Shown here: positions 6,941 through 45,642 of the stretch, piece after piece
Position numbering within the stretch: position 1 is the stretch's first letter
Layout of the letters: each line of letters begins with the position of its first letter
IMG/VR virus record: IMGVR_UViG_3300019863_000025
Location: 1-46,063 of that record
Length of the DNA: 46,063 bases
From: a virus
Strand: one strand, 5' to 3'
The notes under the pieces: generated by a model
Database searches by the model: none
Told to the model about the DNA's origin: nothing
The model's input: the letters and a program-made list of their open reading frames with translations, nothing else
Translations under genes and position numbers: made by a program

Positions 6941-6966
6941 AGTATGGGTAACCCATACTCTATATC
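6934..6966. terminator. Bidirectional terminator between convergent genes
   Basis: The 15-bp stem GATATAGAGTATGGG / CCCATACTCTATATC closes on the 3-nt loop TAA. It contains the stop codons of both the rightward gene (ending 6940) and the leftward terminase (ending 6960). Confidence 0.75.
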
Positions 6967-9203
6967 GTAGCTACTGTATTTTTTCTTCTATTAAGGTAAC
7001 TATTTCTAGTATTAAACTTTCTATTTAGTTTATATACATTAGATTTAGTATCTTTTTTCTTATTTTTATTTTTTTCTCTAGAGATATTTTCCAAAAGATT
7101 ATTTATATTTAGATTAGTTATAAGCTTACTATCTATATCCTTGCTAAGAAATTTTATTTTATTAGTGAGTCTATCTATCATAGTTTCACTATGTTCTTTT
7201 CTTAAAGCATCCAATAGATTATCTATTCTTTGTTTTAATCTTCTCTGACTTTCTAATAGCTTAGCTCTATGTTCTCTAGTCATTCCATCGTTATCATCAT
7301 CTATAGAGGCATTTATTATTTCTGTAAGTACTATGTTAGTATTTATACCATAGTGTTCTTTAAACTTACCTAACAATAAGAACCAATGACCCAATGACCA
7401 ACTGATGACCATATCATCCTTACCACCTGTTCTGTGATCTATCCTACCGTGTTTTACCACTAAACCTCTAATTTGATTAATAGTATATTCATCCCTTACA
7501 CCAGCTCCAGTATAACTCATAGCTGAAATCAAAGCTTCATTATAGATATTATCTCTACTACTTCTACCACCTGCTGATGTTGCATAACCAAAGTGTTTTT
7601 TATATTTAGTATATAGGAAAGGATCTCTAGATTCTACATTACAACTAAATACTTCATCTATCCTATCAGGAAACATATCAGCTTCATGTACTATCCAGTT
7701 AAACATCCTTTTAAAAGGATCTATTCCTCTAGCTGGTAATATCAATAATAGATTATCTATAATAGCTGGACCTGTACTTCTACGCTCTATGATTAAAGTT
7801 AAGTTTTCATAAGTTTCTATCCAATCAGCTAACCATTCTGAATAAGTGATTACATTAGTTTCATTGTAGTTACCTGCAGCTACTACAGCTCCAGATTTAG
7901 CATCTTTAAGGTGTAATGCTATATCATCATTACCTAAAGCTTCTGATGTATCTGTAGACAATACTAAATGAGATGTTTTAAGTAAGTGTTCTAATTCTTC
8001 TTCAGTAACATACCATCTAGTAATATAACCTTGTTTACTTATAGTAGTTCTTACTACTCTCATAAGAGAATCATTTACTACTTCTAATGTTTTCTTATTA
8101 AAAGGGGATTCTTTCTTACCCACTGACCATATATTTAAAAAGTCTGTTTTAGCTTCTTCTACAGTACACATAGCATCTTCAATCTTCTGAGCTAGCCAAG
8201 CATCCGTATAGCCTAACTCTCTATGATTAAATTCACTTATTACTAATACTTTACCATTAGTACCGCTTCTACTACTACTATTCTTTCTAATAATCTTAAC
8301 TAAATCAGCTTCGTCTATACAGTCAAATAGCAATTCAGTCCACCTCATACCTATCATAAAGATAGTATTATAAACATATTCACCTTCTGGAGTATCTAAG
8401 TAACCAGCCGTAGATGTAAAGATGTTACCATAAGGTTCGCCTTTTTCTTTAGCTTCATCTCTTACAGCCCCACCAGATGCCAATAGAGCGCCTAAAGTAA
8501 TTTGTATATTCTTAACAAAGTTTATCTCATCTATCTGATTAATAGGAATTGTCATACCTCTACCCATATTAAGAGCAGCTTTAGCAGATGCTTGACCTAT
8601 ATTAGCTAAGTAAACATTACCTAAAGCATTAATAGTGATTTGCTCTGTACTATTAGTATCTCCAGTTTGCTTAAGCTGTAAGTACCAAGGTAAACATTCG
8701 TATATCCTTTTAAGTCTCATAACATTAGAAACCCTTAGTTTATCATCTTTGGTTAAAAGGTTTATTCTAGTATTTTCTGTAATTAACATAAGACAAGTCA
8801 TAAGTGTATCTGTACCAAAAGACTTACCAGTTTGTCTAGGTTGTATCACTAAGTTAGTAATATGATTAAAGAATAGCCATATCAGAGATATAATAGATCT
8901 ATTAGCTCTTATAGGATTACTACCAGAGCCTGAGTTAGATGGAGCTCTAGCTATCTCCCTAAAAAAGTACCAAGGATTTACCTTAATTTCTCTACCTATT
9001 CTAGTTACCATTTCTGGAGATAAGTTTTCATCAAATGGATCTACACCTTGTAACTTAGGGTCGTGTAAAGCTAATAAAAAAGCATGGTTCTTTATACCCA
9101 TTTTCTTATATACTCCAGCTAATCTTAAAAAACTTTTATTAGATGTTTTTAAATCTGGAAACGCTGTTGGATAACGATTCCAGTTTTCGTAAAATAATAT
9201 CAT
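6960..9203 (-). CDS. Terminase large subunit (phiKZ-like), DNA-packaging ATPase-nuclease
   Basis: 747 residues, typical of jumbo-phage large terminases. The N-terminal region has NPWYFFREIARAP and FRAN-like RANRSIISLIWLFFNH, seen in phiKZ-type enzymes. Walker A is QPRQTGKS (Lys127). Walker B is probably INQIDE. The C-terminal RNase H-like nuclease shows STDTSEALGNDD (first Asp near 418), LIIERRSTGP (Glu) and GGKDDMVISW (Asp pair near 596). It cuts concatemeric DNA and drives it into proheads at the portal. About 120 C-terminal residues are a basic, lysine-rich extension. The start has RBS AAGGAATAG. It is transcribed alone on the minus strand between rightward operons. The assignment is secure. 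Confidence 0.93.
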   Translation of the reverse strand: MILFYENWNRYPTAFPDLKTSNKSFLRLAGVYKKMGIKNHAFLLALHDPKLQGVDPFDENLSPEMVTRIGREIKVNPWYFFREIARAPSNSGSGSNPIRANRSIISLIWLFFNHITNLVIQPRQTGKSFGTDTLMTCLMLITENTRINLLTKDDKLRVSNVMRLKRIYECLPWYLQLKQTGDTNSTEQITINALGNVYLANIGQASAKAALNMGRGMTIPINQIDEINFVKNIQITLGALLASGGAVRDEAKEKGEPYGNIFTSTAGYLDTPEGEYVYNTIFMIGMRWTELLFDCIDEADLVKIIRKNSSSRSGTNGKVLVISEFNHRELGYTDAWLAQKIEDAMCTVEEAKTDFLNIWSVGKKESPFNKKTLEVVNDSLMRVVRTTISKQGYITRWYVTEEELEHLLKTSHLVLSTDTSEALGNDDIALHLKDAKSGAVVAAGNYNETNVITYSEWLADWIETYENLTLIIERRSTGPAIIDNLLLILPARGIDPFKRMFNWIVHEADMFPDRIDEVFSCNVESRDPFLYTKYKKHFGYATSAGGRSSRDNIYNEALISAMSYTGAGVRDEYTINQIRGLVVKHGRIDHRTGGKDDMVISWSLGHWFLLLGKFKEHYGINTNIVLTEIINASIDDDNDGMTREHRAKLLESQRRLKQRIDNLLDALRKEHSETMIDRLTNKIKFLSKDIDSKLITNLNINNLLENISREKNKNKKKDTKSNVYKLNRKFNTRNSYLNRRKNTVATI

Positions 9204-13859: not shown

Positions 13860-13952
13860 ATGGAATTCATAGCAAGTAATTATATATGGGTCGCAGGTGC
13901 TGTTATACTCACATTAGTATTTAGTTATAGAAAGCTAATACCAAATGAGTGA
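13860..13952 (+). CDS. 30-residue single-pass membrane peptide
   Basis: ATG 13860 follows RBS AGAAAGG by 6 nt. The peptide MEFIASNYIWVAGAVILTLV... has one transmembrane helix and a short basic tail (FSYRKLIPNE). It overlaps the next large gene by 8 nt (ATGAGTGA) and starts 2 nt after the transglycosylase-like gene. Spacing and RBS make it a likely real gene, perhaps related to lysis. Confidence 0.55.
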   Translation: MEFIASNYIWVAGAVILTLVFSYRKLIPNE

Positions 13953-16900
13953 ACATAGTAAATTAGGTTATTCTGACGAATGGCTTAAAAAGAAGTTAAA
14001 AGATAAAGATACGATACCAGATGTATTCAGGTTACATTTTGAAATGGAACGAGAAACATTTGAATGGCTAGAAAAGTCTAATAAAAATAATAAACATAAT
14101 AAAAGGAAAGTAATGTTAAAAAGAATAGAGATCAAAAAGTATACAGATGTAAAGGCTTACGAAGATAAATTAGAATCTGGTAAAGCTAAGTTGACTTTAA
14201 TTATAGAAAATGGTGATAATAAAGTAATGAGAAATGAAGGTAATAAATTAACTGCATATTTTAAAGAGTTTACTGTACTTTCTTCTGAACAAGTAAGACC
14301 TATAGATGCATTACTGATCCCAGGTATGGTAGTTAAGTTTGAAAGACTATTTGTTATGGGAGATGTATTAAAAGCTTATGAATTTATGCATGAATTGTTA
14401 CCTAGAATGGAGTCTTTAAAAGAGATAAATGTATTTGGTGAATGTGATGATAGTATATTTGAATCGGTAATTTTACACAACTTACAAGTGGGTAGAGAGT
14501 TTATAGATAGAAATTCTATGTATGGTGCTTTTGGTTCTACAGATAGTGTATTAAGTAACCCTTCACATATGTACGATATATTAAACCAAGGTATTTCAGG
14601 TAGACAACAACATAAACAAGATATGTCTCGTGGTTGGGGATTTGATAGAGTTAGTAATGGTATAAGTGCTTTATCTGAAAAATTCGTAGATATTGAGAAA
14701 GTTAAGTCTGAAGTAAATAGCTCTGCAGAAGTAGCTGGTGAAATTAATGCAAGAACTGAACACGAGTTAAGTAAATTGATTAATATGGTAAGAAGTAACC
14801 AAAAGGGTAATAGTACAGTTATGTTAATTACACAAGATGCTCCTTATATTTGGGAAGATCTAAGAGCGTCTTTAGGACAGGGTACATTTCTTTATACTAG
14901 AGAAAATCCTGCTAGTGAAATAGCAATGCCTATACAAACAGAAATTTACTCTTTAATGGGTAGCGAATTAAAATGTTTTATAGATTGGTGTAAGACTTCT
15001 TATTTTCATCCTGAAACAGTAGGTCAAATCATTTTAGATATAAATCCTTATAAATGGGAAGAAGTAAAACCTTTATTAGTAAGCACATTTCCTAATTTAA
15101 ATAAAGTTTATATCCCTGGCGGTGAAAGCTTTTCTATTGAAAAAGAAGAGTTTAAAGTTTTAAGTAAGGTAACGATAGAAGAAGATACTTATGAGCTTAG
15201 ACATTATTTAGACGATAATAGTAAGTATGTATATTGTGGAACTCAAAAGAGATTTGATAGAGGTTATAGAGTAGATGATTCTGCTATCTCATTAACTATA
15301 GGTGAATATTTTAGAAACCCTTTATTACCATCTCTAGAGGTTCTTAATGAAGATCAAACTATAGATGAGATACAAATATCTGTAAGTCCTTCTTTTGAAG
15401 TAGGTAATGAATTCTACCATAAAGAAAATAATACTAAATTTGAGTTATTAGAGTGGATAACTCCTAACGATATGGTAAAAGTTAGAAATACTTTTAGCGA
15501 TGAAATATTTCAATTAGAAGCATCTAAGTTAGTAAGATTAAGAGTGGATTTTAGTCCAGTTGATGCATCTAATAAAGAGTATGTTATGGGTGACAAATGT
15601 TTTGTAGGAGTAAAGCCATGTACATTTATTAGACATGTAGATGCTATAACTTCTGAACTTGTAGATGATAAAGATAATATAAGATATGCTTACACTAAGG
15701 CTATTTCAAGTAAGTCTGATGAGAATGTTTATTATCAAGGACAAAATGTATTTGTTGCGGGAAGAGCGGCTGTTTTTATAAGGTATGAAGATGGTATGAC
15801 TACAGCGGTTGTCGAATTTAAAGAACAGATGAATAGTTACCATCAAGGTCCTAAAAATGTCAAAATTAATAAAATATCTCATTTAGATAAAGATAGATTA
15901 TGTTTGGGAGAGAAATATTATCTGGGTAATAAAAGATGTGTTCTTATAGAACTAATACCAAATTCTTTAGATGCTAGAGTTTTATTAGCTGGCGAAGTTG
16001 ATGAAGAGCACATAGTTAATTCTATAACATTATGTAAAGAAAAAAATGATGAGTATTTCTATCCAGGAGAACCAATAACAATTTACGACATGAAAGCCAC
16101 TTATATTAAATATCAAAGTGCTAACTTTGCTTCAATTAGATATGATGAAGCACCTAGTAATAGTATACCTAGTGATATGTCAAGAGATTTTATAAGTAAA
16201 GTGTCACCTAAGGTAAATAAAGAGTATGAACCAGATAATGAATTATGCCTTAAAAAGAAAGATAAATTTGATGTTGATAACGATGGAGAGACTATCATAT
16301 CTGGTAAGAGATACATCTGTATGAACTCTACAGATATAAAGTTTTTAGAGGGTACTGAAGTATTAGCTATGGTAGATGGAAAAGAGGTACATGGTACTTA
16401 TGTATCTGATCTTAATGATATTATGTATCTTGTTAAGCTTGTAGATAGTTCAGGAAGTATAGGTGTAGAAAAGGGTAATGTATATGTACCTGTACCAAGT
16501 GATAAGCCTTTAAGAATAAATCTTAATAAAGATAGATTAAATAACTTTATATTCTTTAATCAGTTTAACTTAAATAGTTTTAAAAATGGTGATAAAGTAT
16601 TGTTTGTTAGTGACTTTATGACAAATAATGATAAGTTAGCTATGGAACAGATGAAGACATCTTATGTCACTATTATACATATGACTTCAAAAGAGTTTAT
16701 TAAAATGCAAACAGAATCTACAGGTCCTGTAGAGATATTTCGTATAGTAGTAATAGATGTATGTGAGATAGGTAAACAAGCTTGTATAAACATAGCTCAA
16801 GGTATGAGTGTATTAGAAACTCTAATAGTATTTAATAATACGGATAGTTGCTCTACATCTTTTAAACATAGAGATTATAGTTTAGATAACTTAGCACAAG

Positions 16901-17301
16901 CTGAAGTAACAGTTAATAACGCTATGAAAGCTATGCATGATGGTATACCTGTAAATGTTAAAGATAACTTTAACTTAGCTAATATAATAAGTAAAGGTGT
17001 GAAAGATGAAATAGTGGTAGTTTTTAGTGATAATGAAGAAAAATGCAACAAGTGGTTAACTGCTTTTAATGGAACATGGAGTAAAAATAGTTTTGTTACA
17101 AAGTTACCTAATATCGCTTTAACTATTAAATTTACTTTAAAGTTTGATAGGATTGCAGATGAGTCTAAAATTAAACAAATACTAATTTTAGACTTTACTA
17201 AAGATGAAATACTTTACAAACTTAAAGAAATAGCAAATATTTATACTGACTTAGAAACTATTTGGTTTACAGATGGAGATAAAATAAATATTATTAGGTA
17301 A
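13945..17301 (+). CDS. Large protein with tandem degenerate ~55-residue modules, unknown function
   Basis: 1118 residues, the longest gene here. No enzyme family is recognised. Residues about 486-745 hold five degenerate modules starting near 486, 547, 596, 653 and 705. They share a pattern like Y/C-x-x-G-(E/D/Q)-x(8-10)-(F/V/Y)-I and then a beta-rich stretch, as expected for tandem small beta-barrels. The C-terminal third (from about 850) has alpha/beta segments such as NGDKVLFVSDF, FRIVVIDVCEIG and DEIVVVFSDNEEK, reminiscent of repeated Rossmann-like cores. The N-terminal 60 residues are charged and helical. It overlaps the small membrane ORF and is followed by a strong terminator. Candidate roles are a virion inner component or scaffold, but this is not shown. 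Confidence 0.65.
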   Translation: MSEHSKLGYSDEWLKKKLKDKDTIPDVFRLHFEMERETFEWLEKSNKNNKHNKRKVMLKRIEIKKYTDVKAYEDKLESGKAKLTLIIENGDNKVMRNEGNKLTAYFKEFTVLSSEQVRPIDALLIPGMVVKFERLFVMGDVLKAYEFMHELLPRMESLKEINVFGECDDSIFESVILHNLQVGREFIDRNSMYGAFGSTDSVLSNPSHMYDILNQGISGRQQHKQDMSRGWGFDRVSNGISALSEKFVDIEKVKSEVNSSAEVAGEINARTEHELSKLINMVRSNQKGNSTVMLITQDAPYIWEDLRASLGQGTFLYTRENPASEIAMPIQTEIYSLMGSELKCFIDWCKTSYFHPETVGQIILDINPYKWEEVKPLLVSTFPNLNKVYIPGGESFSIEKEEFKVLSKVTIEEDTYELRHYLDDNSKYVYCGTQKRFDRGYRVDDSAISLTIGEYFRNPLLPSLEVLNEDQTIDEIQISVSPSFEVGNEFYHKENNTKFELLEWITPNDMVKVRNTFSDEIFQLEASKLVRLRVDFSPVDASNKEYVMGDKCFVGVKPCTFIRHVDAITSELVDDKDNIRYAYTKAISSKSDENVYYQGQNVFVAGRAAVFIRYEDGMTTAVVEFKEQMNSYHQGPKNVKINKISHLDKDRLCLGEKYYLGNKRCVLIELIPNSLDARVLLAGEVDEEHIVNSITLCKEKNDEYFYPGEPITIYDMKATYIKYQSANFASIRYDEAPSNSIPSDMSRDFISKVSPKVNKEYEPDNELCLKKKDKFDVDNDGETIISGKRYICMNSTDIKFLEGTEVLAMVDGKEVHGTYVSDLNDIMYLVKLVDSSGSIGVEKGNVYVPVPSDKPLRINLNKDRLNNFIFFNQFNLNSFKNGDKVLFVSDFMTNNDKLAMEQMKTSYVTIIHMTSKEFIKMQTESTGPVEIFRIVVIDVCEIGKQACINIAQGMSVLETLIVFNNTDSCSTSFKHRDYSLDNLAQAEVTVNNAMKAMHDGIPVNVKDNFNLANIISKGVKDEIVVVFSDNEEKCNKWLTAFNGTWSKNSFVTKLPNIALTIKFTLKFDRIADESKIKQILILDFTKDEILYKLKEIANIYTDLETIWFTDGDKINIIR

Positions 17302-21044: not shown

Positions 21045-21068
21045 TATAGGAATATTCCTATACTAGTC
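21039..21068. terminator. Bidirectional palindromic terminator
   Basis: The arms GACTAGTATAGGAAT and ATTCCTATACTAGTC form a perfect 30-nt palindrome spanning the stop codons of the rightward KH gene and the leftward fusion gene. A T-run follows on the plus strand. Confidence 0.75.
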
Positions 21069-22552
21069 TAAGTTATTTTTTTTCTGTAGTTTATCTGACC
21101 TTTGTTAATATAGTCTCTGCTTTTATCTAATCTATGGTCTTGACTTTGATAATCACCTAACGCTTCATTTATTAAAAGCTGTTTCCAGAACTTAAAATCT
21201 TCTTTATCGGCTAAGTTGTATATTGGAACACCTAAACTATCTGCTAGCGAAATAGCTAATCCAGTACCTCCTGTATCTTTACTTCTAGTAGACGAACTCT
21301 TACATCCGTCTTTAGTATAACATATTACAAACTCTGAAATCTTATTAAGATCTTTACCTAACACTTGGTATGTATTTCTACCCATAAGTTTCTTAACTGG
21401 AGGTTTTAAGAATGGAAATGCTAAGTGATGTTGACTTGATAACTCTATAGCTTCAAAAGATACTTCGTGTAGTTTAGAAGTATTACTATTGAAACCTTTC
21501 CAAGGTAAATATATCTCTTTCCTATCATCGTTAGTAACACCATTCTCAAAAGCTAAGTCACTTCCATCAGCTCCTCCAGATCTTAAGATGTATCCTTTTC
21601 TTTCTAAGCATCTAGCTATATCACTCATCATAGTTTTAATCTTATCAGGTATATCTCTACTACCTATACCAGTATAGTGGAAAGTAGGTAGTGAATAAAC
21701 ATATACATTACTAGGTAAAATACTTAGGTATGGTAATATAGTAGATACTTTTAATCCGCCATGGTTTATAGCAGGAAATGGAATACCTATCTTTTTATTA
21801 GGTATCTGTTCCGCAAAGAAAGCTAATGACTTTAAAGTTCTAATCACTAAAGGTAACTCACTATCATCTTTAAAGTGTTTCTTAGTTTGCACGGCTATAA
21901 GCTTACTATCTTCATCTACCTTTATACCATACTCTGATAAGTGTTCTATATTCTTACCAAAGTACTGACTAGACTTAGTAAACTTATCTCTAATTACTTT
22001 AGCATTACCTGCACCCATAACTAAGCTTCCCATACTATTAATAAAGCTATTAGCTGTGAATCCTATATAGTCATACTTCTTTATCTCTTCAGTCTCGTAA
22101 AGGTCACCTATAATTATATTAGGTTTCCTACTAGAATAAGTTTCCTCTAGTTCTCTCTTTTTATCTTCTATAATCTTACCTAGATGATTACTACCCTTTC
22201 CATTACACATACCAAAGAAAGTATCACCCCATGAGTTTTCTTCTATAATAGGAACATCTACTTTTAATAACTGGTCTCTAAAATAAGGAATATTGAATTT
22301 TATATCTATAATCTTTCTCATTACTTTTAATCTAAATTCATTATTATATTCTTTTCTTAACTCCCAACTTTTAGATACTTTCTTACACTCATAAGGATTC
22401 ATTTCACTTGCACTCCTTATTAACTCTTTATCAGTAGTTTTTTGAGCTTGATAATAACATTCACTATTATTCCACATAAGTCCATCTATCTCTATAGGAT
22501 AAGGAAATAAAGACATATTGCTTAAGAAAGCATATTTACCTTTAAATAACAT
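21068..22552 (-). CDS. NADAR - macrodomain - SLOG fusion (ADP-ribose/NAD-processing, probable anti-defence)
   Basis: 494 residues with three domains. Residues about 1-140 are NADAR (YbiA-like): GKYAFLSNMSLFPYPIEIDG, YYQAQK, ENSWGDTFFGMCNGKGSNHLG. Residues about 145-290 are a TARG1/DarG-like macrodomain: IIGDLYE, FTANSFINSMGSLVMGAGNA, KVIRDKF, IGIPFPAINHGG. Residues about 295-494 are a SLOG/DprA-like domain: YTGIGSRDIP, YILRSGGADGSDLAFE, EIYLPWKGFN, TGGTGLAISLA. NADAR and DarG-type macrodomains remove ADP-ribose from guanine or thymine bases, and SLOG domains bind NAD-related nucleotides. One chain could therefore sense and erase ADP-ribose marks made by host DarT-type toxins. It is last in a minus operon with RecJ. 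RBS AAAGGA. Domain calls are strong; the combined role is inference. Confidence 0.88.
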   Translation of the reverse strand: MLFKGKYAFLSNMSLFPYPIEIDGLMWNNSECYYQAQKTTDKELIRSASEMNPYECKKVSKSWELRKEYNNEFRLKVMRKIIDIKFNIPYFRDQLLKVDVPIIEENSWGDTFFGMCNGKGSNHLGKIIEDKKRELEETYSSRKPNIIIGDLYETEEIKKYDYIGFTANSFINSMGSLVMGAGNAKVIRDKFTKSSQYFGKNIEHLSEYGIKVDEDSKLIAVQTKKHFKDDSELPLVIRTLKSLAFFAEQIPNKKIGIPFPAINHGGLKVSTILPYLSILPSNVYVYSLPTFHYTGIGSRDIPDKIKTMMSDIARCLERKGYILRSGGADGSDLAFENGVTNDDRKEIYLPWKGFNSNTSKLHEVSFEAIELSSQHHLAFPFLKPPVKKLMGRNTYQVLGKDLNKISEFVICYTKDGCKSSSTRSKDTGGTGLAISLADSLGVPIYNLADKEDFKFWKQLLINEALGDYQSQDHRLDKSRDYINKGQINYRKKIT

Positions 22553-22554
22553 AT

Positions 22555-22821
22555 TTAATCCTTTACTTCTAGTTTTAAGTCAAGTATTCTATATAGGTCT
22601 ATTTCGCACTCTTCTATGTTCTTAGCAGATATACCGTCAATATATTTTAAATCAAATTTTTTAAACTTCTCTGTTTTAAGTATTCTATAAAGAAGAGAAT
22701 TAACTATATAATTCTCAACTATTTTAATAGCATGCAGCATAGGATAAATAGTAAGTTCATTTTCGTTACTATCAGATAATTCCATTATATTATCTAACTT
22801 AACTATTCTATGGTAATACAT
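22555..22821 (-). CDS. Unknown protein, 88 residues
   Basis: The start (22821) overlaps the preceding gene's end by 19 nt and the stop lies 2 nt before the fusion gene's start codon, so it is tightly co-transcribed. A small acidic helical protein without recognisable motifs. It could be a partner of the NADAR-macro-SLOG protein, on context alone. Confidence 0.55.
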   Translation of the reverse strand: MYYHRIVKLDNIMELSDSNENELTIYPMLHAIKIVENYIVNSLLYRILKTEKFKKFDLKYIDGISAKNIEECEIDLYRILDLKLEVKD

Positions 22822-23159
22822 ATCAACTCTTTCTTAAAAACTCTAGTTAGTCTATTCAGTAACTGTTTAAATGCAACATCATAATCTGTACTTAATGAAC
22901 TAGTCATTACATATTTATGTATTCTTATCTCTGTATGTAATCTAGTATACATTAAAGCATTATCAATACTGTAAGTTTTAGTTTGTTCAAACATATCAGT
23001 ACAAATAGATTCAGCATAATCACCTAATCTATCATACTTCAATACTTGAAAGAATAAATTATTAAATAAAGGTACTTTATCATTTTCTATCATAGAGATT
23101 ATTGGTTCTACTACATTAGCTATTTTATCTACTCTTGCTGTCTTTTCTGTAAGTTTCAT
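22803..23159 (-). CDS. Unknown helical protein, 118 residues
   Basis: RBS AAGGAGTG precedes the start. Mostly helical with no membrane segment or known motif. It lies 10 nt after the RecJ-like gene and overlaps the next gene by 19 nt, the second of four genes in the minus operon. Confidence 0.55.
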   Translation of the reverse strand: MKLTEKTARVDKIANVVEPIISMIENDKVPLFNNLFFQVLKYDRLGDYAESICTDMFEQTKTYSIDNALMYTRLHTEIRIHKYVMTSSLSTDYDVAFKQLLNRLTRVFKKELICITIE

Positions 23160-23169
23160 TATTCACTCC

Positions 23170-24873
23170 TTATAAGTGTAAACTATTTATATTAAACTGT
23201 ATAGTTAGTTGTCCCATAAACATATTGAATTGGGGTATACCTATAACCGTAGCTATTTGTGGTTTATCTAACAATTTGTTTATAGTATCCATATCCTTTA
23301 TACTATACATACCCTTTAATGGATTATTGTTATCGTCTATCATCTCTATTAAAGCAAAGTTACCATATATCTTTATATCTTTAATAAATATTTTCATAGA
23401 TAGATTTACTTTATCCCAATCCATTCCATATGGTCCCAGTTTATCTATTTCATATATTAAGTCTTCTGTAATCTCAGTATTCTTAATACTACCATCTATT
23501 TTTATAGGTTTTAATTTAACTTTACCTTTACCATATAATTTACTATAAGTTTTATCAAAAACTTCTTTAAAAGTTTCAAATTTATCTTTATGTAAACTAC
23601 ATCCACCAGCACCAGCATGTCCACCTGCTTTTATAAATACATCTGGATTAGTTTCTTTTATAGTATTAAAAATCTTAGATATATTTACATGTTTTAAAGT
23701 AGCTCTAGCACTTCCTGTCATGATAGGTTTACCATCTTTATCTTTACCCTCTATAAAGCATACAGATGGTTTATTATGCACTTCACCTAACTGACCTGCT
23801 ATGATTCCATTTATAGCTACATTAGTCTTTATAGTAGTTATAAGAGTAGGTTTATTTTCTCTGGGTAATATCTGCTCTTTTACAGAAGCTATCATATCTT
23901 TTTGTAATCTTTTCCTAGACATATTCATCTTCTTAAGCTCTTCAGCATATTCTATTATATTATATCTATCATTACTTATAAGTAATTTATACCCTATTTC
24001 AGCTTTATTCATTCTACCAGATGAGTTTATAAGAGGAGCTAAAGTAAAGCCTATATCCATATAATCTACTAATGGTTTCATACCTATGGTATCTTTTATA
24101 ATACTCCATTTATCAGGATGTTTACTTAAAGACATAACTTCAAATCCCATTCTACAAATAGCTCTATTAAGCGGTTCTGCTAAAGACATAACATCCGATA
24201 TAGTAGTAATAGCTACATAAGGAACTATATCTTGCCATGCTTTTAAGCTATAATCCATCTTTAAAGCTTTAGCTGTAGATAACATAACTACAAAAGCAAC
24301 AAAACACCCTGAAGTACTTTTAGGAAATAAAGAACCTTCTCTTTGATTGTTTACAAATACCGTAGGTGTAGATGGATAATTATCACCAGTTGGTATAGTA
24401 TGGTGGTCTGTAAGGATTACCCTTATACCATTCTTTTCTAAAACACCTATATTTACCTTATCACTAGAACCATGGTCTGCTAATATCAAAATATCTATAG
24501 GGCTTTCATTATGTCTAGTCATAATTCTACCTAGCAATGTATCGTTTATACCATTGCCATCTCTTCTTCTATTTAACATAACAGAAAGCTTATTTGTTGG
24601 GTAATTGAAATGTTCTTTAAAACTTCTATACATGACTGCAGCTGAAGAGATGCCGTCTGCATCGTAATCGGTAACTAATGCTATATGACTTTTTTTCTTT
24701 ATATGCTTAGCTATTAATTTACCTGCTTTATCTGAATCTAACAATAATGTTGTATCTATATAAGGTTCTTTAAATACATATTCTTCTATTACTTTATTAG
24801 TAACCTTTCTTCCGTTTAACCTATTCTTTAGAATATTATTTTGCAACTCCGTAAGTTGTTTATCTTTATTCAT
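23170..24873 (-). CDS. recJ: RecJ-like DHH single-strand DNA exonuclease
   Basis: 567 residues, the usual RecJ length. DHH-domain motifs run in order: LVTDYDADGISSAAV (the DxD-type metal site near residue 66), ILADHGSSD, then VILTDHHTIP (DHH at 156-158) and NSSGRMNKAEIG. The DHHA1 domain follows with KAGGHAGAGGCSL, and a C-terminal OB-like region (YGNFALIEMIDD...) ends the chain. RecJ degrades single-stranded DNA 5' to 3' using metal ions, in recombination and repair. It is the first gene of a minus operon ending with the NADAR-macro-SLOG fusion, starting at a divergent promoter region (24874-24981). RBS AGGAGTAAC. The family call is secure. Confidence 0.9.
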   Translation of the reverse strand: MNKDKQLTELQNNILKNRLNGRKVTNKVIEEYVFKEPYIDTTLLLDSDKAGKLIAKHIKKKSHIALVTDYDADGISSAAVMYRSFKEHFNYPTNKLSVMLNRRRDGNGINDTLLGRIMTRHNESPIDILILADHGSSDKVNIGVLEKNGIRVILTDHHTIPTGDNYPSTPTVFVNNQREGSLFPKSTSGCFVAFVVMLSTAKALKMDYSLKAWQDIVPYVAITTISDVMSLAEPLNRAICRMGFEVMSLSKHPDKWSIIKDTIGMKPLVDYMDIGFTLAPLINSSGRMNKAEIGYKLLISNDRYNIIEYAEELKKMNMSRKRLQKDMIASVKEQILPRENKPTLITTIKTNVAINGIIAGQLGEVHNKPSVCFIEGKDKDGKPIMTGSARATLKHVNISKIFNTIKETNPDVFIKAGGHAGAGGCSLHKDKFETFKEVFDKTYSKLYGKGKVKLKPIKIDGSIKNTEITEDLIYEIDKLGPYGMDWDKVNLSMKIFIKDIKIYGNFALIEMIDDNNNPLKGMYSIKDMDTINKLLDKPQIATVIGIPQFNMFMGQLTIQFNINSLHL

Positions 24874-31976: not shown

Positions 31977-33023
31977 ATGAATAACAATAGAAGTAAATTA
32001 GTAATACATGGTGCAGGTGGATGTGGTATATCTTTAGGTGGTAGTATCTATGCAGACCTTAACAAATTAGAAGATGGTTTTTGTAATACAACTATAAACT
32101 TTTTAGATACAAGTGCAAATAGTGTACATGAAGGTAATAAAGATGTCTCTCTATTTAGAATAAACAATACTGATGCTGGCGGTAATGTTATTAAAGGTGG
32201 AGGTGGTGAAAGACAAACTAATGCTAGTCATATCCCATCTGAAGTAAATAGATATCTTAATGAAAATAAGTTTACTAAATATAATGGTGATGAATTTCAT
32301 CTAGTAGTATTCTCTGCTGGTGGTGGTTCTGGTTCTGTTATAGGACCTGTATTAGTTAAACAATTATTATCTACAGGTATCCCTGTTATCGCTATGATAG
32401 CGGGTAGTAATGATTCGGCTATTATAGCTAAACATACTAAAAATACTTTAGCTGGTTTAGATAGTGTTGCTAGAAAGTTAAATAAACCTTTAAGCATAAT
32501 GTATTCTAATAACAGTGCTTTTAATACAGGTTCACCTACATTAGATGCTGTTGAAGCTAATAAAGCTTTTAGAAAAAATATAAAGTTATTATCTACTATG
32601 TTATCTGGTACTCATAATGAACTAGATTATAAAGATATGGTAAACTTTGTAGATCAATCTCATTATGGTACTGTAAATGTAATACCTGGTCTATATGGTA
32701 TCTCTATGTTTGATAAAGAAGTTAGGTTACCTGATAGTGCTGTACATAGCGGTATTAGAAGCTTAACACTTAAAGAGATACCTGTGACTAGTGTATTATC
32801 TACACTACATTCTAAAATAGGTTATGTTGCTTTTGAAGAAACAGCTAATGAATTTAAAGATATCAATTGGCCAATTCATGCAGTTACACATACTAATTGG
32901 TATGGTTCAGAAGTAGCTCATTTAGATAAAGAAATAGCTAAAGCTGAAGAAGCTATGAGAGCTATGCAAAATAGTGTCATTACAGGGTCTTCTGAAGCCT
33001 CTGATGATGGTTTAGTACTTTAG
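31977..33023 (+). CDS. phuZ: PhuZ-like phage tubulin/FtsZ-family GTPase
   Basis: 348 residues. The nucleotide-binding motifs of the tubulin/FtsZ family are clear. There is an N-terminal Gly-rich loop HGAGGCGISLGGSI (residues 10-23), the tubulin signature FSAGGGSGSVIGP (about 106-118) and a T7-like loop NELDYKDM (about 217-224) with the catalytic acids. The C-terminus is a charged helix (DKEIAKAEEAMRAMQN) followed by an acidic tail (SSEASDDG), like the polymer-contact tail of PhuZ. In phiKZ-like phages PhuZ filaments centre the phage nucleus and carry capsids. Last gene of the 31238 operon; RBS AGAGAG. A strong terminator follows. Confidence 0.9.
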   Translation: MNNNRSKLVIHGAGGCGISLGGSIYADLNKLEDGFCNTTINFLDTSANSVHEGNKDVSLFRINNTDAGGNVIKGGGGERQTNASHIPSEVNRYLNENKFTKYNGDEFHLVVFSAGGGSGSVIGPVLVKQLLSTGIPVIAMIAGSNDSAIIAKHTKNTLAGLDSVARKLNKPLSIMYSNNSAFNTGSPTLDAVEANKAFRKNIKLLSTMLSGTHNELDYKDMVNFVDQSHYGTVNVIPGLYGISMFDKEVRLPDSAVHSGIRSLTLKEIPVTSVLSTLHSKIGYVAFEETANEFKDINWPIHAVTHTNWYGSEVAHLDKEIAKAEEAMRAMQNSVITGSSEASDDGLVL

Positions 33024-40938: not shown

Positions 40939-42810
40939 ATGGCTGTAAAAAATACTGCTGAAAACAACAACAACAACAACAATGGTGGACCTGCTCAAAA
41001 CTCAGGTGCTGGACAACAAGAACATGGTAACAACTTTGAAGCGCAACAACAAACTGTTAAACCATCTACATTAGGTGGTGGATTTGGTTCTCCTATTGGA
41101 GCTGGAATTATTACTGCAAATAATGGAAGTGCTGATACTACAAGACTTGCTGCTGATATGTTAAAATTCTATACAGAGAAAATGCCTTCTGAGTATATTC
41201 CAAAAATTAACATCTTAACAAAAGAACCTTTTAGATTAGCTTATGATACTATCGTTGTATCAAACATTCATGCTGGTGTAGTTTACTACCACCTTATCAT
41301 TATGGAAGCTACTGGTATTAAGTGTATGACTGCAAAAGATATTTCTGCTACATTAAGTAGTATGTTACCACAACAAATGCAAAACATTCACCAATATATT
41401 TCAACACCTGATATGGCTATTGACAATGACTTACATGAAATTGTAACTGCTGTTCTTAAAGAAGAGTATAAAACTGCAACTGGTTTCTATCCAACAGATG
41501 GTTTAGTTATAAACACACATGTAGAAACTGATAGAGTATTTGGAAACATTGCTGCAACTGCGTCTAATGCAAATATTTCTGCAATCAATACTGCTGCACA
41601 AGGTGATCTAAATCTTAAAGATGCAATTACTGGTAACCAAACATTAGAGTTTGAAACTTTAATTAATAGCGGAACTGCTGTTGATACATTAGGAAATCCT
41701 GTAAGAAATGATATCCTTATTAACCTTGTAAGTAAAGAAAGAACTCAAAACCATAAAAGTATGAATGGTGGTGATGCGAGAGTTATTGTTACTGCTGTTA
41801 ATGCTTATGTTGATACTTTAGTATCTCAGAAAACATTACCTGCTACATTTGGTGCTGCTGGTGGTCTTATTACTAGATACCATCCACATATCATTATTAA
41901 CAATGCGACAACTTCTGTTAAAACTGTAAACTATATGTTACTTAACATTATTGCTGGTACAATTGCTCTTAATGAATCTATTTGGTTAGCTCCTCTATTA
42001 AAAGATGATGTATCTACTTCAAATATTGGTGCTTTAAACATCCTTACAAATATTGAAAACAATGCAAAAGGTTTAGGAAGTGTACTTAACTTAAATGATA
42101 AAAAGCTTACAAAAGAGCAAGCATTTGGTATGATAAAAGATATGATTTCTGAAGCTGGTGTTTTAAGTTATGATGTTAAAGCATATGGTGAAAATGCTGC
42201 TGTTGAAAGTATTTTAGTTGCTGCATCTAGTTCTAGTAATGCTGCTGTTATTAAAGGTGCTAGAAAGAAATTAGTTCAAGCTTGTCATAGTTTAACAAAT
42301 GGTGCATTCCCATTAGACTTTGATATCAACTCTATCTTTGCTACTGAAGGTGCTGATGTTCCTGCTGGTTACTACGATACAAGTAAAGGTCTTGAAGATA
42401 TTGCAAATGTAGATATGGCTTTTGTTGCTACACAAACAGGTGATGTAAATGCTATTACAGATGCTGCTATTAGTAAATTACCTAAGTCAAAATCAGGTGC
42501 TGATAGTTTCTTAACAACAACAAACATTATCGCACAACATGTTCCAGGTGCTGTAATTACTGGTAAGAAAACAAGAGTTACATTTAACACTGCTTTCTTA
42601 AATACACTTATTGCTTCTGCTAAAACTGCTGGTCTAGTACCAACATATAATCCAGAAGTTATCTTAGCTAACAACAGTAACTTAGCTACAGTTGGAAATG
42701 TATATGCAAATGCATTTAACAATAACATCCAAGGATTCAATCCTCATATGGTTGCTGGTAGTAATGCATTCATTATGCCAAATACTATGGGTGGTTACAC
42801 ACACTACTAA
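40939..42810 (+). CDS. chmA: Putative chimallin (phage-nucleus shell protein); major capsid protein is the alternative
   Basis: 623 residues, matching chimallin size (about 630). The N-terminal ~45 residues are an Asn/Gln/Gly-rich flexible tail, and the C-terminal ~25 are also low in structure (NPHMVAGSNAFIMPNTMGGY). Flexible terminal tails of this kind link chimallin subunits. The gene sits directly upstream of an RNA polymerase beta' gene, as gp54 lies beside gp55 in phiKZ, and 8 kb from phuZ. Codon use differs clearly from all neighbours: Ile is mostly ATT/ATC instead of ATA, and Ala GCT/GCA and Thr ACA are frequent, as expected for an extremely abundant protein. It has its own terminator. 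I did not recognise the sequence itself, so a major capsid protein is possible. Confidence 0.65.
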   Translation: MAVKNTAENNNNNNNGGPAQNSGAGQQEHGNNFEAQQQTVKPSTLGGGFGSPIGAGIITANNGSADTTRLAADMLKFYTEKMPSEYIPKINILTKEPFRLAYDTIVVSNIHAGVVYYHLIIMEATGIKCMTAKDISATLSSMLPQQMQNIHQYISTPDMAIDNDLHEIVTAVLKEEYKTATGFYPTDGLVINTHVETDRVFGNIAATASNANISAINTAAQGDLNLKDAITGNQTLEFETLINSGTAVDTLGNPVRNDILINLVSKERTQNHKSMNGGDARVIVTAVNAYVDTLVSQKTLPATFGAAGGLITRYHPHIIINNATTSVKTVNYMLLNIIAGTIALNESIWLAPLLKDDVSTSNIGALNILTNIENNAKGLGSVLNLNDKKLTKEQAFGMIKDMISEAGVLSYDVKAYGENAAVESILVAASSSSNAAVIKGARKKLVQACHSLTNGAFPLDFDINSIFATEGADVPAGYYDTSKGLEDIANVDMAFVATQTGDVNAITDAAISKLPKSKSGADSFLTTTNIIAQHVPGAVITGKKTRVTFNTAFLNTLIASAKTAGLVPTYNPEVILANNSNLATVGNVYANAFNNNIQGFNPHMVAGSNAFIMPNTMGGYTHY

Positions 42811-42895: not shown

Positions 42896-44145
42896 ATGGC
42901 TATCAATCAATGTTTCATATCTTTAGATGGTCTTTATCAATCATCTACAGGTGACAAGATCATACTTAATGATTTATCTTATTTAGATATGAACGATATT
43001 AAATCTATCAATGAATCTTTACTTACAGTGTATGGTGGTGAAGTGATATCTACTATACCATCTTGCGATTGCCCTACTGGAGGTCTAGTAGGAAGATATC
43101 TACTAGGTACAGTATGTGATAAGTGTGGTGTGGAAGTATCAGAAGCTAGAGACAAATTAGACCCTGTTATATGGCTAAGAAGCTTAAGTTCTACTGGACT
43201 TTTTATATCTCCTCATTTCTGGCTTATGTTGAGAAAAGCTATATCTAAAAACTTAGATGTGTTAAGATGGTTATCAGATACTTCTTATAATCCTCCTGTC
43301 ACACTACCTCCTTACTTAGATAACTTAAAGAATCTAATAGGTGGTAGGATGTATAGTAATATGTCTAATAACTTAGAAAAGATTATGTCTTTCCTTTTAG
43401 AACAACCATCTTTTAAAGTAGCTTCTAAAGCTACAAACTTAGAAGGTATATTAGAACTCTATAAAAGGAATAAGAAGCTTATACATAGTAACTATTTACC
43501 TATTGTAAATAAGAAGTTATTTGTTATGGAAGATACTTCTAGTGGTAAATATACTAACCTAGTGATAGGTGATGTAGTTGACTTAGTATTATCTTTCGTG
43601 AGAGTCTCTTCCCCGAATACTAGTCCAAGAAGAACTAGTAACGCTGTGGGTTCAGTTATTAGTAAACTTGCTAATATGTATAATGATTACTACTCTGACT
43701 TTATTACAGGTAAAGGTGGTAGTTTTAGAAAACATCTATATGGAAGTAGAAGTAACTTCTCTTTTAGAGCTTTAATTGTTCCTAAGACAGGAAGACATAG
43801 GTATAATGAAATAGATGTACCTTGGAGTATAGGAGTAACAGTATTCAGACCACATATCATGAATAAGTTACTTTATAAATACAAAATGAAATTCAGAGAA
43901 GCTTCGGCTTTGATGTTTGAATCTGTGCATAAGTACAGTGACCTTATAAACGACATTCTTAATGAACTATTAAGAGAAGCTCCAGATGGTAAGCTTTGGG
44001 TAATACTACAGCGTAATCCTTCTCTATTCTCTGGTTCAGCACAGAAAGTGTTTATAGGTAGTTTTAAAACAGACCCTAAGGATAAGTCTATGGCAATGAG
44101 CGTACTCATTGTTAAAGCACCTAACGGCGACTTCGATGGTGACAT
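42896..44145 (+). CDS. Split RNA polymerase beta' subunit, exon 1 (interrupted by intron)
   Basis: The first part of a multisubunit-type RNA polymerase beta' chain. Early zinc-binding cysteines C57, C59, C74 and C77 sit in a pattern like bacterial beta' (CDC...TVCDKCGVEVSEAR is almost the canonical GxxCxxCGVEV). The exon ends with NGDFDGD (residues 410-416), the catalytic magnesium-binding loop (NADFDGD in bacteria). Reading then runs into a short tail and stop (to 44161) because a group I intron begins here; the rest of the gene should lie past the window end. Placement beside the putative shell gene suggests the non-virion polymerase, as for phiKZ gp55. The exact splice site is uncertain; 44145 is my estimate. 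Confidence 0.85.
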
Positions 44146-44211
44146 AGCTGGCTTAAAATAAATAAAAAACACACATAACCTATTATATGATATAAAATAA
44201 AAGGATAAAAA

Positions 44212-45642
44212 ATGAAATCGTATAAAGTAGTAGGTAATGGTTATTACAGAATTACAGAAGAAAGAAAAGTTGTTAGAGCGGATGGTAGACCTTTAGATTT
44301 ACCTGAAACAGAAAAAACAGTAAGTATATCTATATATGGTATGTTTAGAGAAGTTGAAAAAGAGTGGTTATTTTGGTTATCATTCTTTAAGTTAGAATTA
44401 CCTATGTTGTATAGGATTAACGTATTTGATTATGAGTTTAAAGAGCATAGCGCACTTAAGCACATGAAAGTAGACCCTATGATAGTAAAGTTTAAAAGTC
44501 CTGTTTATTTAACCAATAATAGAGACTTTAGACTTATAGCTAGGTTTCCTAATTATGCTATAGATTTTATGGGTAATATTATAAATATGACTACTCGGAT
44601 AGCGGCGTATATAAAAAAACCACTCAACAAAAATTACCTTAAGTCTAACATAGTAGATCAAGCGGAACTTTATAAATCAGCCACTTTTGCTACACATAGA
44701 TTAGTAGCTCTTACTTGGGTAGATATAGATGATTATGTTAAGCATCCTATAGTAGACCATAAAGATGGTGATAAGACTAACTGTCATTATACTAACTTAG
44801 AATGGGTATCTTATAGCGGTAATAATAAAGCTGCTGTAAATACAGGTTTACGAAAAGATAATAAAATTACTCTATCTAGAAACATAGATACTGGTGAAGT
44901 AAAGGAACACGCTTCTCTTACTGATGCTAGTAAGTATATAGGTAGATCTACCATAGATTCTGCTAGAGGTAACTTAAGACCTAATAGAGTATGGACTGGT
45001 ACTTCTGGTAGATATGAGCTTAAGCTTAAATCAGATAAAAGAGATTGGTACTTTTTAGGTGGCGAAGTACTTCCTAAGATTAATAAAAAAGTATTGATTA
45101 CAATTACTGATGAAAATGATTCTAAGTGGTGTTATGACGACTCTAGTGAGTTTAGAGATAAAGAGCTAGGGATAAAGGGAATAATGTCTATGGATGTAGC
45201 TATAGAGCGATTTAAAGCTAAGTATCCTAAAAGAACTATAGAGGTAGAAAGACTAGATGATAGATTCAATGGTGGAGTAGAAGCTAGACACCTGTCTAGT
45301 ATGAAAGTACATCACGGTAGAACTATAGAAGAACTTTCTAGAATAATAAACATACCTAAAAGTACATTAACCAAATACATAAGTCTAAGCGATGGATATA
45401 AAATAGGTGATTACCAAGTTAGAGTAAGAGATGATAGAGATTGGGAAACTAAACCTAAAGATGTAAACTATATGCATAAAGCTAGACCATTGCAAGTTAT
45501 AGATATCGTAACTGGTGAGATAAAGAAATTTCCTAGTTATAGAAAAGTAGCTGAACAACTTAAAATTGACAAGAAAACTGTAAAGAAAATATTAAAAGAA
45601 CAAATCTTACTTCGTAGTAGATTTAAAATTATTATGCCTTAA
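44212..45642 (+). CDS. Intron-encoded HNH homing endonuclease
   Basis: 476 residues, large for an HNH enzyme. The first ~115 residues form an unrecognised domain. The region at about 120-205 is NUMOD4/HNH_3-like: RFPNYAIDFMGNIINM, then ATHRLVALTWV and the nuclease motif HPIVDHKDGDKTN...LEWVSYSGN. C-terminal DNA-recognition repeats follow (DTGEVKEHASLTDASKYIGRS near 224, and VTGEIKKFPSYRKVAEQLKIDKKTVKK near the end, NUMOD1-like). Such enzymes cut the intronless allele of the host gene and so spread the intron. Intron endonucleases in nucleus-forming phages can cut competing phages' RNA polymerase genes. RBS AAAAGGATAAA. It ends 36 nt before the P core region. Confidence 0.9.
   Translation: MKSYKVVGNGYYRITEERKVVRADGRPLDLPETEKTVSISIYGMFREVEKEWLFWLSFFKLELPMLYRINVFDYEFKEHSALKHMKVDPMIVKFKSPVYLTNNRDFRLIARFPNYAIDFMGNIINMTTRIAAYIKKPLNKNYLKSNIVDQAELYKSATFATHRLVALTWVDIDDYVKHPIVDHKDGDKTNCHYTNLEWVSYSGNNKAAVNTGLRKDNKITLSRNIDTGEVKEHASLTDASKYIGRSTIDSARGNLRPNRVWTGTSGRYELKLKSDKRDWYFLGGEVLPKINKKVLITITDENDSKWCYDDSSEFRDKELGIKGIMSMDVAIERFKAKYPKRTIEVERLDDRFNGGVEARHLSSMKVHHGRTIEELSRIINIPKSTLTKYISLSDGYKIGDYQVRVRDDRDWETKPKDVNYMHKARPLQVIDIVTGEIKKFPSYRKVAEQLKIDKKTVKKILKEQILLRSRFKIIMP

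Follow-up and report, generated by a model that had tools for sequence, protein, structure and literature searches.

A NADAR-macrodomain-SLOG fusion protein of nucleus-forming jumbo phages as a candidate counter-defence de-ADP-ribosylase

What might a phage gain from joining three domains associated with ADP-ribose and NAD in a single polypeptide, and on which molecules might that polypeptide act? These questions are raised by a gene in the IMG/VR virus record IMGVR_UViG_3300019863_000025, of which we analysed a stretch of 46,063 nucleotides (hereafter the window). The gene lies on the minus strand at positions 21068-22552 and is a single open frame of 494 amino acids that begins with ATG and has a motif resembling a ribosome site, AAAGGA, a short way upstream. 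An original prediction, made from the nucleotide sequence, had read it as a NADAR, a macrodomain, and a SLOG domain fused in an unusual order, and had proposed that the product reverses DarT-type marks on both guanine and thymine while sensing or sequestering NAD-derived signals.

Domain composition of the fusion protein

Profile matches and AlphaFold models confirm that the gene encodes one protein with three folded domains, and all three domain calls of the original prediction were correct, including the DarG/TARG1-like nature of the macrodomain. The motifs on which it had relied are all present in the protein, none of them by chance: GKYAFLSN (residues 5-12) and WGDTFFGMCNGKGSNHLG (108-125) in the NADAR part, MGAGNA (179-184) and IGIPFPAINHGG (255-266) in the macro part, and YTGIGSRDIP (293-302), RSGGADGSD (324-332), and TGGTGLA (427-433) in the SLOG part. 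In the predicted structures, the middle third is a macrodomain and the C-terminal third a SLOG domain, so that the outcome named as refuting the prediction did not arise. The AlphaFold model of the whole chain, built on a 26-sequence alignment, has a mean pLDDT of 87.7 and a pTM of 0.65, at which the relative placement of the domains is unreliable. A C-terminal tail (residues 471-494; 21071..21142, minus strand) has a pLDDT below 50 and is missing from the homologue described below, which stops near residue 468.

The NADAR domain is of YbiA type and spans residues 1-141 (22130..22552, minus strand). It matches Pfam PF08719 with an E-value of 4e-11 and 43.9 bits, above the cut-off of 35.1 (47.2 bits in the genome search), as well as phrog_1017 (E 3e-25), and in the full model its structural match is YbiA (2b3w, Z 14.0). 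Catalysis by NADARs involves E88 and K95, as numbered in the E. coli C7 NADAR, and an acidic residue of the last strand, a Glu in members of the YbiA subfamily (PMC11543638). The corresponding set is present and near-invariant in the fusion: E31 and K38 are unchanged in all 71 aligned NADAR sequences, with the same spacing of seven as E88 and K95, and E104 is kept in 69 of the 71. The active-site loop (residues 106-116) is modelled with low confidence. Fold, catalytic residues, and the YbiA-type Glu (E104) are thus common to the fusion NADAR, YbiA, and the NADAR antitoxin of DarTG1; unlike these, the domain is fused, has no adjoining DarT1, and scores far under the NCBIfam equivalog cut-offs. 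NADARs take ADP-ribose off guanine in DNA and RNA and not off thymine or uracil (PMC11125620, PMC11833690). The NADAR of phage T4 and YbiA are active in vitro and yet fail to rescue cells from DarT1, so that catalytic competence is no proof of a capacity to counter DarT.

The second domain (residues 142-290; 21683..22129, minus strand) belongs to the DarG/TARG1 type of macrodomain. Residues 143-290 match phrog_335 (E 4e-16), and a family profile of 47 phage macrodomains, compared with the PDB, recovered DarG crystal structures (5m3i/5m31; E 2e-17 and 2e-15) and TARG1 (4j5r, 8e-10). The top solved neighbour of the full model is the ADP-ribose-bound DarG of Thermus aquaticus (5m3e; Z 18.6 with 2.4 A over 139 residues), followed by DarG of M. 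tuberculosis (5m3i, Z 18.1), Thermosipho DarTG (16.9), and human TARG1 (16.4), with the remaining macrodomains at Z 15.7 and below (e.g. YmdB, 14.2). K224 lies in a QTK motif that aligns with the PTK of DarG, is invariant in 81 of 81 sequences, and is by this motif the likely counterpart of the catalytic DarG K80. ADP-ribose on thymine and uracil is removed by DarG, the antitoxin of DarTG2, and by TARG1 (PMC13036486). Both proteins share with the fusion the macro fold, the best structural match, and the catalytic Lys motif; unlike DarG, the fusion carries no C-terminal DarT-binding domain, has no DarT gene, and is joined to NADAR and SLOG. The NCBIfam DarG model aligns to it only at positions 68-131 of 338, below cut-off, and to the macro part of the homologue with an E-value of 6e-11, below the full-length cut-off. 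No ADP-ribosyltransferase toxin gene adjoins the fusion gene, and the fusion and the flanking genes covered gave no PADLOC match; with no ADP-ribosyltransferase nearby, a toxin-antitoxin unit was rejected.

The SLOG domain (residues 291-470; 21143..21682, minus strand) matches the DprA-like family phrog_768 over residues 292-461 (E 6e-51) and was modelled alone with a pLDDT of 90.9. It carries the conserved GSR, SGGA.G.D, RN, and GGT motifs, R392 and N393 being invariant in 65 of 65 sequences. Its closest structural neighbours are DprA (3maj, Z 13.2, 3.0 A over 136; H. pylori DprA, Z 13.1) and, tied at Z 13.2, a molybdenum-cofactor binding protein, with ShosA (11.1), YpsA (10.5), and ThsA (10.4) further away; by Foldseek E-value, H. 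pylori DprA ranks first. The Rossmann-like fold and the GSR and SGGA.G.D motifs are shared with DprA and ThsA alike. Searched against PDB sequences, the SLOG profile had no significant match, its one hit being DprA at E 0.05. The LOG phosphoribohydrolases carry the motif PGGxGTxxE, which includes their catalytic Glu. This Glu was not found in the fusion, which has TGGTGLAI, the position of I434 being occupied by I, L, W, V, or M across the 65 sequences; we infer a binding module. The SLOG domain of ThsA binds cADPR through contacts that include R371, K388, and E403 (PMC10022894). Since the models place the fusion SLOG nearer to ssDNA-binding DprA than to this cADPR sensor of Thoeris, its proposed sensing or sequestering of NAD signals appears to be the weakest step of the original prediction.

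Carriers and recurrence of the fusion

The window is part of the genome of a nucleus-forming jumbo phage. It encodes the nuclear shell protein chimallin (40939..42810, plus strand; PF25677 E 8e-12, phrog_4795 E 3e-33), a PhuZ tubulin (31977..33023, plus strand; phrog_4733 E 3e-46), and multisubunit RNA polymerase, the combination that marks the Chimalliviridae type, together with the phiKZ vertex protein gp28, RNA polymerase beta, and a phiKZ-type DNA polymerase. The RNA polymerase beta-like frame (42896-45642) aligns to positions 2-422 of a family 478 positions long, and an HNH/NUMOD homing endonuclease lies after it at a distance of no more than about 50 bases, a possible sign of an intron or insertion. 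Elsewhere in the window, a 747-residue frame (6960-9203, minus strand) resembles the terminase large subunit over its first 218 residues, its remaining 530 or so residues having no family match; the C-terminal stretch of 6045-6584 matches the Pfam crAss001_48-related protein (E 3e-12); and a 1118-residue frame (13945-17301) has no PHROG or Pfam match.

The fusion gene stands in a same-strand run whose first gene encodes a RecJ-like ssDNA exonuclease (23170..24873, minus strand; phrog_2484 E 7e-73; DHH, DHHA1, and RecJ_OB domains). Between them, on the same strand, are a 118-residue gene of no recognised family (22803..23159) and an 88-residue gene (22555..22821) that lies 2 bp from the fusion gene in operon-like arrangement and has no Pfam match and marginal PHROG matches only.

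A search for the same fusion elsewhere found one further virus among 253 loci, IMGVR_UViG_3300028549_000365 (222 kb), in which a full-length homologue has the identical domain order; this excludes an assembly artefact. The two proteins are 44% identical over 462 residues (E 1e-128), identity being highest in the SLOG part (51%), followed by the macro (41%) and NADAR (36%) parts, and their neighbouring genes differ. The second virus also encodes chimallin, which makes the fusion a trait of nucleus-forming jumbo phages, and carries an additional, separate SLOG gene (145793-146290). A scan for the chimallin pattern returned this already known virus as its sole match. Scanning viral contigs with the window protein alone gave no match, the homologue having been reached via domain profiles. 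A tblastn search of 50,697 phage records yielded no match covering 80% of the fusion, and this result and the 253-locus survey rule out a wide spread among phages; a shallow scan of bacterial genomes with the two-member fusion alignment detected no relative. The fusion itself is rare, with two proteins found.

A single origin is favoured, although not proven, by the NADAR and SLOG trees, which pair the window copy with that of the second virus (support 0.88 and 0.91). The macro tree puts a stand-alone macrodomain (L014) beside the window copy (0.92) and gives weak support (0.315) to the node joining the copy of the second virus. Adjacent unfused pairs of these domains are common: SLOG is directly followed by macro at four loci (L025, L029, L045, and L054), NADAR adjoins macro at two (L214 and L247), and all three lie within 5.1 kb at another (L073). 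The contigs of the closest unfused relatives of each domain gave no chimallin match, these being fragments outside which chimallin may lie. In six complete chimallin phages, the DarG-type macrodomain occurs in five, the SLOG in three, and the NADAR in two, in no case fused. Klebsiella phage Eowyn encodes all three as distant genes (gp008, gp046, and gp315), and phiKZ has gp104 (macro) and gp207 (DprA-like). These are the domain types of the fusion, in chimallin phages too; unlike the fusion, they are separate, unlinked, single-domain genes. The "macro domain protein" gp104 (L278:1018-1506) reaches E 5e-40 against the NCBIfam DarG model, below cut-off, and gives the model phage of the nucleus-forming group a macrodomain of DarG type.

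Other arrangements came to light during the survey. The top BFVD match is A0A516MBM4_3, a protein of 1317 residues with 486 aligned columns. Zuri gp015, initially read as macro-SLOG, is in fact DUF4326-SLOG. One NADAR near the window copy (L266, G011:16263-16647; 40%) is split across two reading frames. A 2024-residue frame with its 5' end cut (L268:3-6074, IMGVR_UViG_3300010354_000044) has NADAR and macro at its end and, upstream, a DFDGDG motif resembling large RNA polymerase subunits, Pfam recognising NADAR and Macro only. On the Allochromatium tepidum plasmid pAt1 (L285:3562-5837), a gene with a SLOG end and a macro-like/A1S_2505 N-terminal part lies behind an IS1595 transposase, on whose far side is a DUF4326 gene; the two are possibly one module split by insertion.

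Candidate substrates and functions

We hypothesize that the fusion serves nucleus-forming jumbo phages as a counter-defence base de-ADP-ribosylase, a reading that we hold to be the most likely and to which we give about an even chance. The NADAR would hydrolyse guanine-linked ADP-ribose and the macrodomain thymine- or uracil-linked ADP-ribose, while the DprA-like SLOG would bind the substrate, either single-stranded nucleic acid or an ADP-ribose nucleotide, and deliver it to both active sites. A single polypeptide might in this way remove both principal forms of base ADP-ribosylation set on phage DNA or RNA by bacterial ADP-ribosyltransferases. With base specificities taken from the literature on relatives, the two hydrolase domains would be complementary rather than redundant, as NADARs act on G and DarG/TARG1 on T and U. 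Moreover, domains that are separate in related phages and fused here are a standard sign of joint function, and the presence of DprA-type SLOGs among the nearest folds of the third domain counts in favour of this reading as well. The proposed reversal of guanine and thymine marks is in keeping with what has been published on the activities of these families and with the intact catalytic residues; its focus on DarT-marked DNA is less secure. The phage nucleus keeps out host enzymes acting on DNA (PMC12931631, PMC13282480), which weakens the DNA version and shifts weight to RNA, soluble compounds, or an early stage before the nucleus forms. The main substrate may thus be something other than DarT-marked DNA, with RNA or soluble compounds of ADP-ribose equally likely. 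A more specific proposal, that the protein acts as a dual G and U/T de-ADP-ribosylase on exposed phage mRNA with the SLOG as nucleic-acid recruiter, strikes us as rather unlikely; if true, it would mean a dedicated RNA de-ADP-ribosylation shield complementing the phage nucleus.

The main rival to base de-ADP-ribosylation would place the target among small molecules, the domains binding or degrading ADP-ribose-derived immune signals or toxins of Thoeris-like systems (cADPR isomers, His-ADPR, or ADPR-1''-phosphate), with the SLOG as binder and the NADAR and macrodomain cutting different bonds. Iyer et al. (2022) explicitly proposed such a role, noting SLOG fusions with macro and/or NADAR, and argued that these phage domains act mostly on small ADP-ribose derivatives (PMC9503650). 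A cytosolic target would suit a nucleus-forming phage, phiKZ already sequesters such signals via Tad1 (PMC13282480), and the cADPR-binding ThsA SLOG shares the fold at Z 10.4. The DarG/TARG1 type of macrodomain is, however, best known for base- and protein-linked ADP-ribose, and the SLOG, whose nearer structural relative is DprA rather than ThsA or YpsA, has no counterpart of the catalytic Glu of LOG enzymes; we regard this rival as possible, if somewhat doubtful.

A role in housekeeping or RNA repair, in which the protein would clean up ADP-ribosylated RNA, NAD-derived damage, or by-products of nucleotide metabolism during phage replication, draws on XacN1 (L002:3974-5884) and RAS14 (L013:2474-4371), which carry, in this order, NADAR, a HAD "Swiss army knife RNA repair" protein, NUDIX, and SLOG, and on a weak match of the NADAR, below cut-off, to the riboflavin-intermediate N-glycosidase model. 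We consider it distinctly unlikely, given that NADARs leave phosphate-end ADP-ribose in place and that the neighbours of the fusion are RecJ and the two small genes without a family, none of them recognisable as a gene for RNA repair or NAD salvage. The RecJ-like gene at the head of the run and the DprA-like SLOG might instead indicate a recombination accessory, an ssDNA binder that shares an operon with RecJ and acts alongside it while the ADP-ribose domains guard recombination intermediates. The homologue in the second virus is not beside RecJ, so that the link is not conserved, and we find this explanation very improbable.

Relation to prior work and implications

Iyer, Burroughs, Anantharaman, and Aravind reported in 2022 that phages combine SLOG, macro, and NADAR domains, and proposed a counter-defence role for them (PMC9503650); their architectures, some with DUF4326, involve the same superfamilies, fused or as gene neighbours, in large phages. 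The relevant passages of that paper describe the combination in general terms and name neither nucleus-forming phages nor the exact NADAR-macro-SLOG protein. The three-part protein in such a virus therefore looks new, while its parts and the general idea were already known. To this our analysis adds the exact triple in two viruses, the assignment of the macrodomain to the DarG/TARG1 branch and of the SLOG to the DprA side, the finding that the catalytic residues are intact, and a connection with phages that form a nucleus.

A 2026 review lists Tad1 as the single anti-defence protein so far described from jumbo phages (PMC13282480). The compact two-hydrolase fusion offers a direct test of whether such phages meet ADP-ribosylation of RNA, DNA, or small signals, and the separate phiKZ homologues gp104 and gp207 put this question within reach of an existing laboratory system. 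More generally, the fusion also provides a test of the 2022 proposal of a division of labour among SLOG, macro, and NADAR.
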